A stretch of DNA of 64,000 bases from positions 900,856 through 964,855 of the forward strand of contig NZ_SAYT01000001.1 of assembly GCF_004296575.1 (NCBI RefSeq). Reading direction: 5' to 3'. Positions 2,456 to 41,466 of this stretch are shown piece by piece. Both the position numbers and the translations under genes were made by a program. Source of the DNA: Dyella amyloliquefaciens. GTDB taxonomy: Bacteria > Pseudomonadota > Gammaproteobacteria > Xanthomonadales > Rhodanobacteraceae. Position 1 is the first letter of the stretch; each line of letters starts with the position of its first letter. The notes below the pieces were generated by a model. It was given only the letters and a program-made list of their open reading frames with translations. It was not told the origin of the DNA and searched no databases.

Positions 2456-5038
<2,583 letters not shown>

Positions 5039-33124: not shown

Positions 33125-33200
33125 GGGTCGTTAGCTCAGTCGGTAGAGCAGTAGACTTTTAATCTATTGGTCCCGAGTTCGAATCTCGGACGACCCACCA
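33125..33200 (+). tRNA. tRNA-Lys (anticodon TTT)
   Basis: A 76-nt cloverleaf is complete: acceptor GGGTCGT with ACGACCC, D-stem GCTC/GAGC, anticodon stem GTAGA/TCTAT (one G-T pair) with loop CTTTTAA, T-stem CCGAG/CTCGG with loop TTCGAAT, discriminator A and encoded CCA. The anticodon TTT reads lysine codons. Confidence 0.98.
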
Positions 33201-35665: not shown

Positions 35666-36721
35666 TCAAGGTGTCGAAGGAGCCATCAGTTCGCGCACCA
35701 GCGCCTGGTGCTCATTGTCGATCTTGTGCAGTCGCGCCTGCATCGCGGCATCGCTGACCCATTGGGCGCTGTAGGCGCGGCGCCGGTCGAGGTTGAACTC
35801 GATATCGGCGAAGGGCACCAGCGTTTCATTGCCGGCAGGCGTGAATCCGCTGATGTCATGGATCAACTGCAGCCTGGCCAGCTCGGCCTGGGCGTTCTTG
35901 CCCTTGCCGTAGGAGGTCAGTGCAGTGGCCACGCGTTGGCGCAGGTCCGCGGGCAGGTCCGAACGGATCACTACCACCGCGTGCGGGATCAGGCTGGAGG
36001 TCCACAGGACGCGCAACCGGTCGTACTGGTCGGGAAACCGTTTGGCGAACCGCTCCAGGTCGGCGGTGTTGTTGGTGGCAACATCCACCTCGTTGTTCGC
36101 CACCGCCAGCGCGTTGTTCTGGTGGTTGTCCACGGTCACGCTGGCGAAGAAGGTGTCCGAGTCGAGCCGGCGATTGGCGAACACCTGCGTTTCGGGCACC
36201 AGGTAACCCGATACCGAGAGCACCTCGCCACGCGCATAGCGCAGGTGTCCTGGCTGGCGGAGCATGTCATCGACGCTGTGCAGTGGCGAATCCTTGGCCA
36301 CCAACAGGACCGAGTAGTAGCCGCGCGAGCCGTTGGTCCGCGTGAGCTGGGCGATCACCTGCATGCGGTCGTGGGTGACCGCGTCCAGGGCGAGGCGACC
36401 GGAGACGAAGGCAAAGTCGACACGCTCCTCGGCCATCGCCTGGGCCAGGCCTTCATAGGTGCTGACCGACAGGGAGTGGACGGGCAGTCCCAGGGTGTGG
36501 CTGAGGTCGTCCAGCATCGGCCGCCATGCCGCGAGCGACTCGGAGGGGCCACCGATGGGCAGGATGCCGAACGTGAGCGCGCTGATGTGCTTGGGATCAG
36601 GCGGTGCGCTGGCGGGCTGGGCCGCCTGGACAAGTGGGGCTGACAGACAGGCAAGGACGAGGCCAAAGGCGACCCACCGGCAGGACCGGAGCCTCAGGTT
36701 TGTCAGCCAGCCCTTCGGCAA
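35666..36721 (-). CDS. PhnD-like (phosphonate/phosphite-type) periplasmic binding protein
   Basis: The 351-residue protein has a signal peptide (VAFGLVLACLSAPLVQAAQ). A weak lipobox-like VLAC is present, but cleavage near VQAA is also possible. The fold is that of PhnD-type substrate-binding proteins: LTFGILPIGGPSESLAAWRPMLDDLS, STYEGLAQAMAEERVDFAFVSG and VDVATNNTADLERF. No transport permease or ATPase is nearby. Instead it sits between sensor kinases and directly upstream of neither, so it may deliver a ligand signal to a kinase rather than feed a transporter. The ligand is not predictable. Confidence 0.85.
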   Translation of the reverse strand: MPKGWLTNLRLRSCRWVAFGLVLACLSAPLVQAAQPASAPPDPKHISALTFGILPIGGPSESLAAWRPMLDDLSHTLGLPVHSLSVSTYEGLAQAMAEERVDFAFVSGRLALDAVTHDRMQVIAQLTRTNGSRGYYSVLLVAKDSPLHSVDDMLRQPGHLRYARGEVLSVSGYLVPETQVFANRRLDSDTFFASVTVDNHQNNALAVANNEVDVATNNTADLERFAKRFPDQYDRLRVLWTSSLIPHAVVVIRSDLPADLRQRVATALTSYGKGKNAQAELARLQLIHDISGFTPAGNETLVPFADIEFNLDRRRAYSAQWVSDAAMQARLHKIDNEHQALVRELMAPSTP

Positions 36722-36818: not shown

Positions 36819-37505
36819 TTACAGCCCGCTGATACGCCGGGAGGCGACCACGGCTTCCACACGGTTGCGAACGTTGAGCGCCCGGAAGATCGCGGCCAGA
36901 TGGATCTTCACCGTGCCTTCGCTGATACCCAGGTCGCGCGCGATCAGCTTGTTGGGCTTGCCCTGCGAGAGCAGGCGCAGCACGTCGATCTGGCGCTCTG
37001 TGAGCAGCTTGCGCAGGCGCTCTTCCAGCGAATCGGCCGGAGTTGGCGCCGGGGTGGCGGGTTGCGCCGCCATGGTCGCGCCATTGGCAACGCCATCGAC
37101 GCGTTCCTGCAGCATCAGGGGCGGCACGTACACGCCGCCCGACAGCACCAGCCGCACGGCGGACAGCATGACGTCGGGCGAATAGGCCTTGGGGATGAAG
37201 CCCTGCACGCCCATCGCGAGCAGGGTCTTCATCAGGGTGGGGTCTTCCACGCCCGATAGCACGATCACCGGCACTTCCGGCAACTGCTCGATCACCTCGG
37301 TCAGGTGCTCGCTGCCATGGACGCCCGGCATTGCCAGGTCGACGAGGGCCAGCGACATGGAGGCCGCGTCGGGGGCGTGGATGGCTTCGCGCAATTCCGC
37401 CATGTCCATGGCAGTGACGAAGTTGGTGTCCGGCCCAAGCTCGGCCAGCTTGAGCTTGACACCTTCGACGATCAGTCGATGGTCGTCAGCAATCAGTATG
37501 CGCAT
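36819..37505 (-). CDS. NarL/LuxR-type response regulator
   Basis: The 228-residue regulator has a receiver domain (MRILIADDHRLIVEG, phospho-acceptor D56 in LVDLAMPG, and a Lys in GFIPKAYSP). An Ala/Pro-rich linker lies at about 140-158. The C-terminal LuxR helix-turn-helix has LTERQIDVLRLLSQGKPNKLIARDLGISEGTVKIHLAAIF. It would bind DNA as a dimer when phosphorylated. It is transcribed toward the PhnD-like gene (97-nt gap) and could form a short operon with it. Its kinase is probably one of the two nearby. Confidence 0.95.
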   Translation of the reverse strand: MRILIADDHRLIVEGVKLKLAELGPDTNFVTAMDMAELREAIHAPDAASMSLALVDLAMPGVHGSEHLTEVIEQLPEVPVIVLSGVEDPTLMKTLLAMGVQGFIPKAYSPDVMLSAVRLVLSGGVYVPPLMLQERVDGVANGATMAAQPATPAPTPADSLEERLRKLLTERQIDVLRLLSQGKPNKLIARDLGISEGTVKIHLAAIFRALNVRNRVEAVVASRRISGL

Positions 37506-37810
37506 GTCGTTCCCCGTGACGCGCGCACGGCTCTCCCATCGCCGCGCATTCGCGCACGCAACATAGCCCCAGCACGCGCCTACAGCAACCGTAGGGAGCT
37601 TACGAACGGCCTAGTCACAAGGTCATATGGTCCGCTGGATGGGGCACCGTGAGAATCGCCCCGATGCGAGGGGGAGTCGCTCATGTGCACCACACGACAG
37701 GGGCGGCGGTGGCTGTATCGGCGCTGCGTATGGCTTGCTTTGAAGGGAGATGGTGCGATCGGGTCGGGTGATGGCGTGCAGGGTGGGCGTTTTGCCTGGA
37801 CACCGTAGCC
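37506..37810. other. Gap of 305 bp, divergent upstream region
   Basis: It lies between the start of the response-regulator gene (minus) and the DotU/IcmF-like fusion gene (plus). No gene, repeat or clear promoter was recognised. GC content drops slightly around 37590-37640, which would suit a promoter of the regulator or the fusion gene. Confidence 0.4.
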
Positions 37811-39553
37811 ATGGGTGTCATGCGGCTGCTGGAGTGCTACGCACCTTTGTTTTCCTTCGGCTTGCTCATCGACGAGCAGGCCGCGACCCCTGATGGCCCC
37901 GGCGAACTGGCGACCGTCCAGATGCGGGCGCGCGCTATCACCGATGATGCCCGCGGCAGGGCGCTCGGGGCAGGCAAGCCGCTGACCGACGTCGAGATGG
38001 CCGGCTTTGCGGCCGTGGCCTGGTTCGATGAAGTGGTCATGCGGCAGGATGCCTGGAAGCACCTGGCGAGTCCGTTGCAACTGGACCTGTTCGGCACGGC
38101 CAGTGCCGCCAGCGAATTCTTCGATCATCTCGCCCACCTGCCGCCCACTGCCGAAGAGGTCCGCGAGGTGTTCGGCATGGCGCTGTCGCTTGGCTACGTC
38201 GGGCAGTACTACTACGAGCAGGACGACAGCGGCGAATTGGGGCGCATCAAGGCGCTCTATTGCCGCCCCAGCGTGACGGCGCCGGTCGTGCTGCAAACCC
38301 TGCAACGCGAGCCCATCACGCCACAGCCCTATCTCGCGCCGGGATCGCCTCCGTTGCGCCTGCCGGCTTCATGGGTGGGGCGGCGCTCGATGCAATTCGT
38401 GGCCGGTGCCCTGGTGTTGCTGGTCCTGGTGGCGTTCGTGGCACCGGTGTTCAGTCACGTCGTCCCCATGCAGACCTGGTTACTGCTTGGCCTTGGCGTG
38501 GTCGCCGCGAGCACATTGGCCTGGGCTGCCACGTTGGCATGGCACCGCCTGGTGGTGATGCGCGCGCATACACGCGTAGCGGCACATCTTGAAGCAGGCT
38601 ACGGCATTGGCGATCTGTGGTCTGCGCTGGTCGATGCCGCGCGACACGTGCGCGGCGCGGTGCTGCATCCGTTTCGTCGCCGTGGCGAATGGCGAAAGCT
38701 GTCGCGGCACCCCTGGTTGATGTTCCTTGGCGACAGCCCCGCGGAAGTGCGCAGCCTGCTGCAGGCTGCCGCCCATGCACCGCACGCGCGCAACTCTCCG
38801 GCCAACGCGGCAGCGAGACCGTGGTACTGGTGGATCTTCCGTTCGGTGGTTGCGGTTGAGCCGGGCGGTCATCTGCTGCAGTCGCCGAACGAACCGCATG
38901 GACAGGCTTCGCCATGGTCACAGGCGCTTTCCCTGCTGGCGCGGGAGCGTCGCAAGCTGCCGCTGGATGGCATGGTGCTGTGCGTGTCGGCGCAGAGCCT
39001 GCTGGAATCGGCGGCACAGATCAGCGCGCGTGCCAGCCGCCTGCAGGACATGGCTTATGAAGCCACGCGGCATCTGCAGCTGCAGTTGCCGCTTTATGTC
39101 GTGGTGACGGGGCTCGAAGCATTGCCGGGCCATGCCGCCGTGCGGGCCACGTTGCCTTCGGCGGTGTTCAGGCGCGCCTTGGGTTGGCGAATATCGTCTG
39201 CACCCGGAGTGGCCTCATCCCACGGACGTATGGACGTCCGCAGCGAAGAAGTGGAGCGACGCTTGGGTGCGGCGGTGATGGCGGCGCTGGCGGTGCAGCG
39301 TCATGCGCGTGGGCGCCGTGAAGTGTTCGGCTTCCTGCAATCTTTGCCGCTGCTGCAGCGAGGCTTGCAGGTGTTTCTCGACCGACTGTCGGCGGGTGAG
39401 GGGGCTGGCGGACGCCGGTTGCTCTGGTGCGGGCTCTATCTAACCGGTGGAGCACGACCCAGTGCGCCCAGCGGCGATTTCGTCGATGACCTGTTCGCGC
39501 GTTTCCTGCCAGCCGATCGCCTGCTTGCGCGCCGCATCGCCCTGGAAAACTGA
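37811..39553 (+). CDS. DotU/TssL-like and IcmF/TssM-like fusion protein
   Basis: The 580-residue protein combines two secretion-system families. Residues 1-155 match DotU/TssL: LLECYAPLFSFGLLID, then FAAVAWFDEVVM, W82, SPLQLDLFG, EFFDHLAHL and ALSLGYVGQYY. Two membrane segments follow (about 194-212 and 221-245). Residues 297-460 follow the IcmF/TssM N-terminal pattern: WLMFLGDSPAEVRSLL, WWIFRSVVAVEPGGHLL, WSQALSLLARERRKLPLDGMVL and LPLYVVVTGLEALPGH. The IcmF P-loop and the DTAG motif are missing at the matching sites. No other type VI or IVB genes are near. It ends 8 bp from the convergent hybrid-kinase gene. The two-domain reading is inference from motif order. Confidence 0.75.
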   Translation: MGVMRLLECYAPLFSFGLLIDEQAATPDGPGELATVQMRARAITDDARGRALGAGKPLTDVEMAGFAAVAWFDEVVMRQDAWKHLASPLQLDLFGTASAASEFFDHLAHLPPTAEEVREVFGMALSLGYVGQYYYEQDDSGELGRIKALYCRPSVTAPVVLQTLQREPITPQPYLAPGSPPLRLPASWVGRRSMQFVAGALVLLVLVAFVAPVFSHVVPMQTWLLLGLGVVAASTLAWAATLAWHRLVVMRAHTRVAAHLEAGYGIGDLWSALVDAARHVRGAVLHPFRRRGEWRKLSRHPWLMFLGDSPAEVRSLLQAAAHAPHARNSPANAAARPWYWWIFRSVVAVEPGGHLLQSPNEPHGQASPWSQALSLLARERRKLPLDGMVLCVSAQSLLESAAQISARASRLQDMAYEATRHLQLQLPLYVVVTGLEALPGHAAVRATLPSAVFRRALGWRISSAPGVASSHGRMDVRSEEVERRLGAAVMAALAVQRHARGRREVFGFLQSLPLLQRGLQVFLDRLSAGEGAGGRRLLWCGLYLTGGARPSAPSGDFVDDLFARFLPADRLLARRIALEN

Positions 39554-39561
39554 CCGCCGCC

Positions 39562-41466
39562 TCAGGCCACCGTGACCCGGTTGGAGGTCCAGGCCGTCAT
39601 CATGGCCTCCCGCAGCTGTTCGGGTGACACCGGTTTGTAAAGTACCGGGATGCGGGCCGCCATGATTTCGCGGAGACGGTCGCTGCGCGTTTCGCCCGTG
39701 ATGAGCAGGCGCGAGAAGGGCGGGTTGCCGTCGCGCTGGTAATGCTGGTCGAGCGCGGCCAGTACGTCCAGGCCGCTTTCCCCGTCGCGCAGGCGCAAAT
39801 CGGAAATCACGATGTCGGGAGGCGTCGGCCATTCCTCGGCGGCGAGCAGGGCCTGCGTGCGGTCTTCCGCGACGGCCACTTCGCAACCCCAGCTGCGCAG
39901 CAGGTAACGAATGCCCGAGAGGATGGCGGGTTCGTCATCGATCACCAGCACGCGCATGCCCGACACATCCAGCGGAGCTTCCTCGCCCCCGCTGTGCGGT
40001 ACCTGCTGCGCCGGGACCTGCGGAAGATGAAAGGTGAACACGCTGCCGCGGCCCGGAGTGGACTTCAGCTGCACCTGCGTGTCGAGCAGCTCGGCCAGGC
40101 GCTGCACGGTGGCCAGTCCCAGGCCGAGGCCGCGTCGCGGTCCGGTGTCGTGCTCGTGGTTGCTGTGGCATTCCACGCGATAGAACTCGTCGAATACGCG
40201 CGCCTGGTGTTCGGGCGCGATGCCGGTGCCGGTATCCCATACGTCCAGCCTCACCGCGCCGTCGCCACGACGGCGCGCCACCACCAGCACGCCTCCCTTG
40301 TGCGTATAGCGCAGTGCATTGCTCACCAGGTTGTTGAGGATGCGTGCGAGCATCGTGCGATCGCTGCGCACCCAGACATCGGTGGCGCGCATGATCAGGC
40401 GAAGGCCGTGCTGCTCGGCGATCATGCGGAAATTGCGGCTGACTTCCTCCAGCACGTGGTCCAGCGGGAATTCGGTGATCTCGATCTGCATCGCGCCGGT
40501 TTCCAGCCGCGACAGGTCGAGCAGTTCGCTGAAAAGATGATCGAGGGCTTCCACGCATTCCTGGATGTGCGCGATGCGATCGAGCCGTACCGGGTCGCGT
40601 TCGTCCTCGGCCAGCGACGAGGAGAACAGGGTCAAGGCGTAAAGCGGCTGGCGCAGATCGTGCGAGGCGGCGGCAAGGAAGCGCGCCTTGGCGACGCTGG
40701 CGGCTTCGAGTGCCGCGTTCTTGCGCGCGAGTTCCACCGTTGCGTGCTCGATCTCCTTTTCCATGCTGCGCTGTACATCGAACAGTGCGAGCGCGGCGCT
40801 GTTGAAGCCGCGCTGCAGTTCGCCGATCTCGGTCTGGTCGGTGACCTCCACCTCCACCCGCCGATCACCGCGTCCCAGCTGGTGCACGGCGGATACGAGT
40901 CCGCGCAGGGGAGCGCTGATCCAGCGCGCGGCCTGCCAGCCGATGATGCCCGCGACGAGCACGCTCAGCGCCAGCGCGACGAGCGCGTTGCGCAGGCTGG
41001 CCTGCTGCGCCGCGATGGCGTCGTTGAGGCTGACATCCACCATCACCGAACCCAGCACCGGCCGGCCGGGTTGTTCGGTATCGACGACATCGCGAACAAC
41101 GGTCAGCGTTTCGGCATTGCCGCCACCGCTGCGACCGAGGTTGTCGGCAAGAATTTCTCCATCGGCTGCGCGGATCTGCACGCGCGCGACGTGGGGCAGG
41201 TCACCGATCGATTCGGCGATGCGCACCAGTTCGCGGCGTTGCATGTCCCGCAGGGCCGTGGTCGATACGGACGCGGCCTGGGTCGCGATGGCGTCGGCCG
41301 TGATCTGCGCCATGCCACGCAGGCTGGTGAGCTGGTGCTGGGTGAGGAGGGCGACCAGCAGCGTGGCCGTCACCAGCGTGGGGACGAGCGCCACCAGGGC
41401 AAGCCGCTGCATCAGCGACGTGCGCCGCCACCACCGCCCCGCTCGGGAGTTCGCCCCTGCACCCAT
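39562..41466 (-). CDS. Hybrid sensor histidine kinase with C-terminal receiver
   Basis: The 634-residue protein has membrane segments at about 22-42 and 158-180 around a periplasmic sensor, then a HAMP domain (RWISAPLRGLVSAVHQLGRGD). The kinase core has H269 in ASHDLRQPLYALTLF, N-box NNLVSNALRYTHKGG, G1 DTGTGIA and G2 GLGLGLATVQRLAE. A receiver at about 507-630 has acceptor D556 in VISDLRLRDG. The receiver would relay to an Hpt or a separate regulator not seen here. The core resembles the kinase at 33284. It lies convergent to the DotU/IcmF-like gene. Confidence 0.95.
   Translation of the reverse strand: MGAGANSRAGRWWRRTSLMQRLALVALVPTLVTATLLVALLTQHQLTSLRGMAQITADAIATQAASVSTTALRDMQRRELVRIAESIGDLPHVARVQIRAADGEILADNLGRSGGGNAETLTVVRDVVDTEQPGRPVLGSVMVDVSLNDAIAAQQASLRNALVALALSVLVAGIIGWQAARWISAPLRGLVSAVHQLGRGDRRVEVEVTDQTEIGELQRGFNSAALALFDVQRSMEKEIEHATVELARKNAALEAASVAKARFLAAASHDLRQPLYALTLFSSSLAEDERDPVRLDRIAHIQECVEALDHLFSELLDLSRLETGAMQIEITEFPLDHVLEEVSRNFRMIAEQHGLRLIMRATDVWVRSDRTMLARILNNLVSNALRYTHKGGVLVVARRRGDGAVRLDVWDTGTGIAPEHQARVFDEFYRVECHSNHEHDTGPRRGLGLGLATVQRLAELLDTQVQLKSTPGRGSVFTFHLPQVPAQQVPHSGGEEAPLDVSGMRVLVIDDEPAILSGIRYLLRSWGCEVAVAEDRTQALLAAEEWPTPPDIVISDLRLRDGESGLDVLAALDQHYQRDGNPPFSRLLITGETRSDRLREIMAARIPVLYKPVSPEQLREAMMTAWTSNRVTVA

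Follow-up and report, generated by a model that had tools for sequence, protein, structure and literature searches.

The window analysed here is a stretch of 64,000 nucleotides from Dyella amyloliquefaciens, which carries at 37811..39553, on the forward strand, a single open frame of 580 amino acids with no internal stop, in which the cytoplasmic domain of the type VI secretion system (T6SS) protein TssL is joined to the N-terminal part of TssM. The gene is flanked by a LuxR-type response regulator (36819..37505) and a hybrid histidine kinase (39562..41466), and a PhnD-type periplasmic binding protein is encoded beyond the regulator (35666..36721), all three on the reverse strand and used here as markers of the site. 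Farther out than the PhnD gene, a tRNA-Lys (TTT) is found at 33125-33200, with queC on one side of it and the first histidine kinase on the other. The likely start of the fusion protein is Met4 (37820), the first methionine common to all 20 copies from the genus.

Alignment, Pfam matches and hydrophobicity divide the protein, along the forward strand, into the TssL/DotU cytoplasmic domain (residues 4-158, 37820..38284), a linker inherited from TssL, with which it shares T-P-Q-P-Y (residues 159-191, 38285..38383), a transmembrane (TM) hairpin aligned to TM1-TM2 of TssM (residues about 192-243, 38384..38539), a basic segment (residues 278-303, 38642..38719) and the GTPase-like cytoplasmic domain of TssM, IcmF-related_N (residues 301-566, 38711..39508). 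Two Pfam domains, DotU at residues 6-210 (E 7.7e-21) and IcmF-related_N at residues 365-562 (E 5.2e-29), scored above their curated cut-offs in this intact frame, bearing out the initial annotation, which had read the 580 residues as a DotU/TssL-IcmF/TssM fusion and had proposed a profile match of the C-terminal half as a check; hydrophobic stretches at about 191-222 and 222-243 account for the two membrane segments that it had also described. Both domains were matched at E 0.001 or better in the fusions of all 20 genomes of the genus. The TssM model TIGR03348 aligns with residues 200-557 through its positions 6-375 of 1168, with a score of 102 bits, short of the equivalog cut-off of 388, and the NCBIfam TssL/DotU models likewise stay below their cut-offs (53.5 bits where 89.95 are required, and 21.6 where 180 are). 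Such scores, with the right regions matched, are what is expected for a partial TssL and a partial TssM.

The joint lies near the end of the linker: the fusion tracks TssL through the cytoplasmic domain and the T-P-Q-P-Y linker and switches to TssM at TM1. The single C-terminal TM anchor of TssL is replaced by the hairpin that aligns with TM1-TM2 of TssM, the periplasmic DUF4384 domain of TssL is missing, and the C-terminus follows TssM up to residues just short of TM3, where it ends. The protein is composed of the portions of TssL and TssM that, by analogy, would face the cytoplasm, together with a TM hairpin. When sequences of solved structures were searched, the first half matched the TssL/DotU chains 3u66 and 6y4r (E 4.5e-5 and 2.2e-4); five further matches (four to tumour necrosis factor, one to enoyl-CoA hydratase) had E values of 0.2-0.5 and were dismissed as chance. 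This search supported only the TssL half. The structure model was too weak to rely on (mean pLDDT 63.6): blocks within residues 1-130 reached 74-94 and those within 371-450 reached 67-85, but the value was about 42 for 281-300, within the basic segment.

The fusion was present in all 20 genomes of the genus searched, where it was also recovered by the TssM profile, and the ten loci with the gene that carry a name all belong to Dyella. Its position is constant: at each of the 19 other genus loci fetched it lies between the LuxR-type regulator and the hybrid kinase, with the PhnD and GlnRS genes farther out (locus L040 is without the more distant pal-queC part). The survey of carriers proposed in the initial annotation thus found the kinase next to the fusion in 20 of 20 cases.

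The genome of the window (4.83 Mb, 17 contigs, completeness 100) was searched as a whole for TssC, TssK, TssF, Hcp, VgrG and TssM. It gave zero matches to the first five families and no full TssM, the sole TssM match being the fusion itself; for the families searched, the sheath, baseplate, tube and spike genes of a functional T6SS are therefore lacking, and the orphan status assigned to the gene from its surroundings extends to the whole genome. A Clp-type ORF at 2456-5038 resembles ClpB by eye. No clear remnants of other T6SS genes were found in the two intergenic gaps of the 20 Dyella loci; two weak GumN matches in these gaps (E 0.04-0.05, over 20 and 39 amino acids) were put down to chance.

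At the same site, T6SS genes are carried by six genomes that belong to the same family but to two other genera (G164, G170, G171 and G188 of genus g22; G083 and G084 of genus g8). There the regulator is followed by a GumN-type gene, tssK, tssL, tssM and tssA, in the orientation of the fusion, and the same PhnD gene is present. The tssL and tssM genes are separated by 5-13 nt. TssF was found in all six genomes, and Pfam assigned TssA, TssB, TssC, TssE (gp25), TssF, TssG, TssK, TssL, TssM, Hcp, a Clp ATPase and VgrG in G188, as well as a C-terminal DUF4384 domain on TssL and a GumN family protein (GumN/TraB) preceding tssK. The hybrid kinase stands at the far end of three of the six loci; on the kinase side, the stretch from G164 ends earlier and the two g8 loci have no kinase within 20 kb. 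The g22 island (L057/L096 in G188, L060/L095 in G170) encloses the response regulator, the PhnD gene and a gene that is MltA-like by eye, with TssE-Hcp-TssC-B-A-M-L-K-GumN on one side and TssF-TssG-Clp-VgrG on the other, these Pfam labels being those of G188 only. The initial annotation had raised the possibility that the gene belongs to a complete type VI cluster in related genomes; its separate parents do occur in the same-site T6SS, but the fusion itself was not found inside any T6SS cluster.

The same-site TssL shares with the fusion its site, its orientation, the linker and a cytoplasmic domain of 47-54% identity, but it is 447-451 amino acids long and has its own TM and, in the one protein scanned, DUF4384. 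With the same-site TssM the fusion has in common TM1-TM2 and the cytoplasmic domain, at 35-40% identity; this TssM differs by its length of 1165-1176 amino acids, with a third TM, a long C-terminal part and a less basic linker.

The two also agree in what they lack. A P-loop (GPPGSGKST or near variants) and a DTAG motif are carried by six TssM that belong to other T6SS of the family; aligned with these, the fusion has GDSPAEVRS and VEPGG, respectively. On the forward strand the position of the lost P-loop is 38723..38761 (FLGDSPAEVRSLL) and that of the lost DTAG is 38855..38869 (VEPGG), as had been noticed from the sequence alone. With Walker A and DTAG both replaced, the protein does not qualify as a P-loop GTPase. 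However, the same-site TssM reads GDADANVHG or nearly so at the P-loop, all six being without Walker A, and IETSP at DTAG in the three rows displayed, so the loss is older than the fusion and is no mark of repurposing. The motifs are absent, as the initial annotation said, but their "decay" predates the fusion. An account of Vibrio fischeri, in the part consulted, notes that TssM has NTPase activity in vitro of unknown biological relevance (PMC8508121).

In phylogenetic trees, the TssL and TssM halves of the fusion group with the six same-site proteins, as sister or nested, and these are the closest relatives found; the split from nine other TssM rows and three other TssL rows had an SH-aLRT of 100 in each case, in quick trees made without bootstrap; some branches were very long, which in the TssM tree was flagged. 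A tree of the flanking genes was built on 41 rows (41, 39, 38, 32 and 33 per gene) from matches with an identity of 50% or more and a coverage of 60% or more; three rows were less than half filled, and long outgroup branches were flagged. It placed Dyella beside its sister genus g9, whose site is empty (support 99), and then g14, whose site is empty as well (85). Genus g22 is mixed, with the T6SS or an empty site, and the place of g8, which has the T6SS, was left open by this tree. The empty site of g9 implies either that the island was lost in place several times or that it moved. It would also fit the arrival of a ready-made fusion by horizontal transfer, in which case the T6SS islands at the same site would be a coincidence. 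We regard this as very improbable, given that site and orientation are identical and that the same-site genes are the closest relatives found. Moreover, no match spanning both parts was seen among the best five candidates from each of the other 213 family genomes, and among the best three candidates from each of 369 class and 398 phylum genomes the only whole-length match was that of the window's own genome, which both of these partly overlapping sets contain (leaving 368 and 397 others). Of 72,556 plasmid records, 42 gave a match, in every case over less than 80% of the query.

Some members of the genus do have T6SS genes, with TssC matched in 6 of the 20 genomes, TssK in 5, VgrG above cut-off in 8 and any VgrG at E 0.001 in 15. 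A fusion that has kept both docking domains might serve a T6SS encoded elsewhere, be it the cell's own or an incoming one, or interfere with it by acting as a decoy that binds baseplate proteins. This has very little probability in our view, as the fusion is kept in the 14 genomes without a TssC match, that of the window included, and as the five TssM from Dyella T6SS in the tree belong to other lineages, the two that were checked carrying a P-loop. In one Dyella genome, a second TssF with one in-frame TGA (G055:C1:3998921-4000633) perhaps belongs to a decaying second T6SS, and in another a VgrG-like gene (G047:C1:1717946-1719364) lies about 16 kb from the fusion and remote from the T6SS genes of that genome at 3.2 Mb.

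The constant company of a regulator and a kinase, which flank the fusion in all 20 genomes, together with the presence of the regulator and the PhnD gene inside the T6SS island of g22, could suggest that the fusion became a scaffold or modulator of the PhnD, hybrid kinase and response regulator module, as an added signalling part. Of the 233 genomes of the family, however, 46 have a match to the regulator with an E value no higher than 1e-70, namely the 20 of the genus, the six bearing the T6SS and 20 others, and 15 of the latter loci were fetched. In 14 of these 15, regulator and kinase are adjacent without any fusion, the gap between the matches being 101-207 bp. Empty sites are thus common, and the signalling genes are maintained where the fusion is lacking, so that its adjacency to them is inherited and is no proof of a signalling role. 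Furthermore, in the 20 aligned genus loci the conserved blocks of the intergenic region shared by regulator and fusion (window 37510-37632) lie on the regulator's side, away from the fusion, and are probably the regulator's promoter. We therefore consider a role in the flanking module unlikely. Of the proposal in the initial annotation that this is a repurposed membrane complex acting as scaffold or sensor, the sensor role cannot be read from the neighbours, while repurposing is probable for an intact gene under selection.

In eight genus loci the regulator-fusion intergenic region is longer by about 250 bp, the additional sequence lying towards the fusion. The only exception among the 15 loci is L067 (6025-8868, genus g15), in which 2.8 kb between regulator and kinase, a stretch that includes masked bases, holds by eye an NhaP/antiporter-like and a small lipoprotein-like ORF; the site may be insertion-prone. 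A TssC-like match in this gap (E 0.003, 26% over 156 amino acids) falls where the antiporter-like ORF sits and was rejected as chance.

The fusion could also be a passive relic, a T6SS leftover without function on its way to becoming a pseudogene. The other T6SS genes searched for are gone from the window's genome, the gaps of the site hold no clear remnants of them, and the fusion is the fastest evolving of the 10 genes compared, with a mean amino-acid distance of 0.505 against 0.080-0.326. Nevertheless, no broken copy was found among the 20 genomes, in which every frame is open. The dN/dS ratio of the fusion by the NG86 method was 0.080 for the four genomes around the window (median of six pairs) and 0.146, 0.127 and 0.066 for three close pairs, within the range of its functional neighbours in the same comparisons (0.006-0.183); residues 1-190 of the same-site TssL and 1-375 of TssM gave 0.040-0.115 in three T6SS pairs. 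Across the 14 closest fusion pairs, NG86 gave 0.066-0.410 and YN00 0.041-0.132, the one pair at 0.41 having a YN00 value of 0.10, and the median of 0.27 by NG86 over all 190 pairs is probably inflated by saturation of dS. The reading as a passive relic is largely refuted by these ratios and we give it very little weight, the more so since many positions that are invariant in the six T6SS parents, 61 in the TssL half and 74 in the TssM half, are kept in at least 19 of the 20 fusions. Throughout the sampled genus, the gene has stayed intact and is subject to purifying selection.

How its speed of change is distributed can be judged against the parents. Between one g22 genome and two g8 genomes, TssL, TssK, TssM and TssA are 70-91% identical, and the regulator and PhnD 70-77%; the Dyella fusion at L031, compared with the same g22 proteins, has 51% identity in its TssL part and 38% in its TssM part, with 73% for the regulator and 71% for PhnD. 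Judged from these identities, the sequence seems to have changed fast on the branch to Dyella and to have been constrained afterwards.

Conversely, the fusions have invariant residues that the parents, which come from two genera only, do not show, at six positions in the TssL half and 26 in the TssM half; several of these are conservative K/R changes. Nine of them, R281, G282, L285, H286, P287, R289, R290, W294 and R295, invariant in the 20 fusions and absent in the six same-site TssM, cluster at 281-295, in the basic segment that separates the TM hairpin from the TssM domain. The linker, taken as the 56 residues that precede the PW motif, has a net charge of +6 to +11 in the 20 fusions, as against +1 to +4 in 12 TssM. 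Other TssM have a shorter LRK.RR-like basic stretch near the place of the segment, which is therefore only partly new, and opposite R381-K382 they are basic as well. The six same-site TssM do not have the segment's H, P and W at these positions, and in six other-site TssM, read by eye, the three residues were not seen in the stretch that directly precedes the PW motif.

The presence in relatives of a T6SS at the same site, with separate and adjacent tssL and tssM genes, makes the fusion most simply a relic that was formed in place and then kept. Taken together, we consider it probable that the fusion is an exapted remnant of a T6SS from this very site, now serving as a membrane-anchored docking scaffold. 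Its parts differ in strength: origin from the same-site T6SS and maintenance by selection are very likely, and the scaffold mechanism is a tentative proposal. Several observations weigh against this reading: the fast evolution of the gene, the pairwise dN/dS of 0.41 and the median of 0.27, the weak structure model, a basic segment that is only partly new, a scan upstream of the fusion that found no sigma-70-like promoter, the hybrid kinase seen at the far end of only three of the six T6SS loci, and the empty site of g9. The simplest origin would be an in-frame deletion in the adjacent tssL-tssM pair that gave one chain, after which the T6SS island would have been lost around the fused gene. 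An old T6SS at the site, with repeated losses and one piece retained in Dyella, would be the simplest history, and movement of the island together with its flanks would be the alternative.

As for the mechanism, the N-terminal domain of TssL and the loop of TssM, with the hairpin between them, would by analogy be displayed on the inner face of the membrane, and these would be the two domains that dock the baseplate in a T6SS. In enteroaggregative E. coli (EAEC), TssM residues 82-360 are reported to bind TssG, and the TssM loop to recruit TssF and TssG to the membrane, in the section consulted of PMC4604203. The fusion might thus act as a nucleotide-independent membrane scaffold for another cytoplasmic partner, perhaps aided by the basic segment on the membrane side.

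The nearest known case that we met of a TssL/TssM-type pair outside a T6SS is that of DotU and IcmF in the Dot/Icm T4BSS of Legionella, which localise to the pole and stabilise the type IV machine, according to the portion seen of PMC7029142. Those, however, are two separate proteins, unlike the one truncated chain described here, and the IcmF_IVB model gave the fusion 13.4 of 1000 bits, far under its equivalog cut-off. A shortened TssM is also known from Citrobacter rodentium, where, in the accessible part of PMC4256274, truncated TssM1 is required; it spans residues 1-807, is unfused and stands beside a full-length TssM in a working T6SS. Searches of the literature by phrase or by the start of title or abstract found no TssL-TssM fusion and no orphan TssM among the matches listed. 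A survey of T6SS in Xanthomonadales covers those of D. japonica and D. thiooxydans and, in the part available, has no such fusion (PMC6653060). The clusters retained by Boyer et al. had at least five T6SS genes, as stated in the extract consulted of PMC2660368, and a survey with that minimum would miss the fusion gene. It may be, though with less than even odds, that the fusion represents a new stand-alone family, the docking face of a T6SS in one chain, free of the machine, with a new partner, perhaps bound by way of the strongly basic segment, and spread over the whole genus.

If this is true, nature would have provided in the fusion a minimal TssL-TssM unit, and an exaptation of the anchor of a contractile injection machine; among the matches listed, the literature searches showed no precise piece of a T6SS retained by selection after loss of the machine. 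One and the same place allows comparison of the island, the empty site and the fusion, and the cytoplasmic domains of TssL and TssM in a single chain would be useful for studying the contact between them. The finding also raises a testable question, that of what the anchor of a T6SS does without the T6SS.
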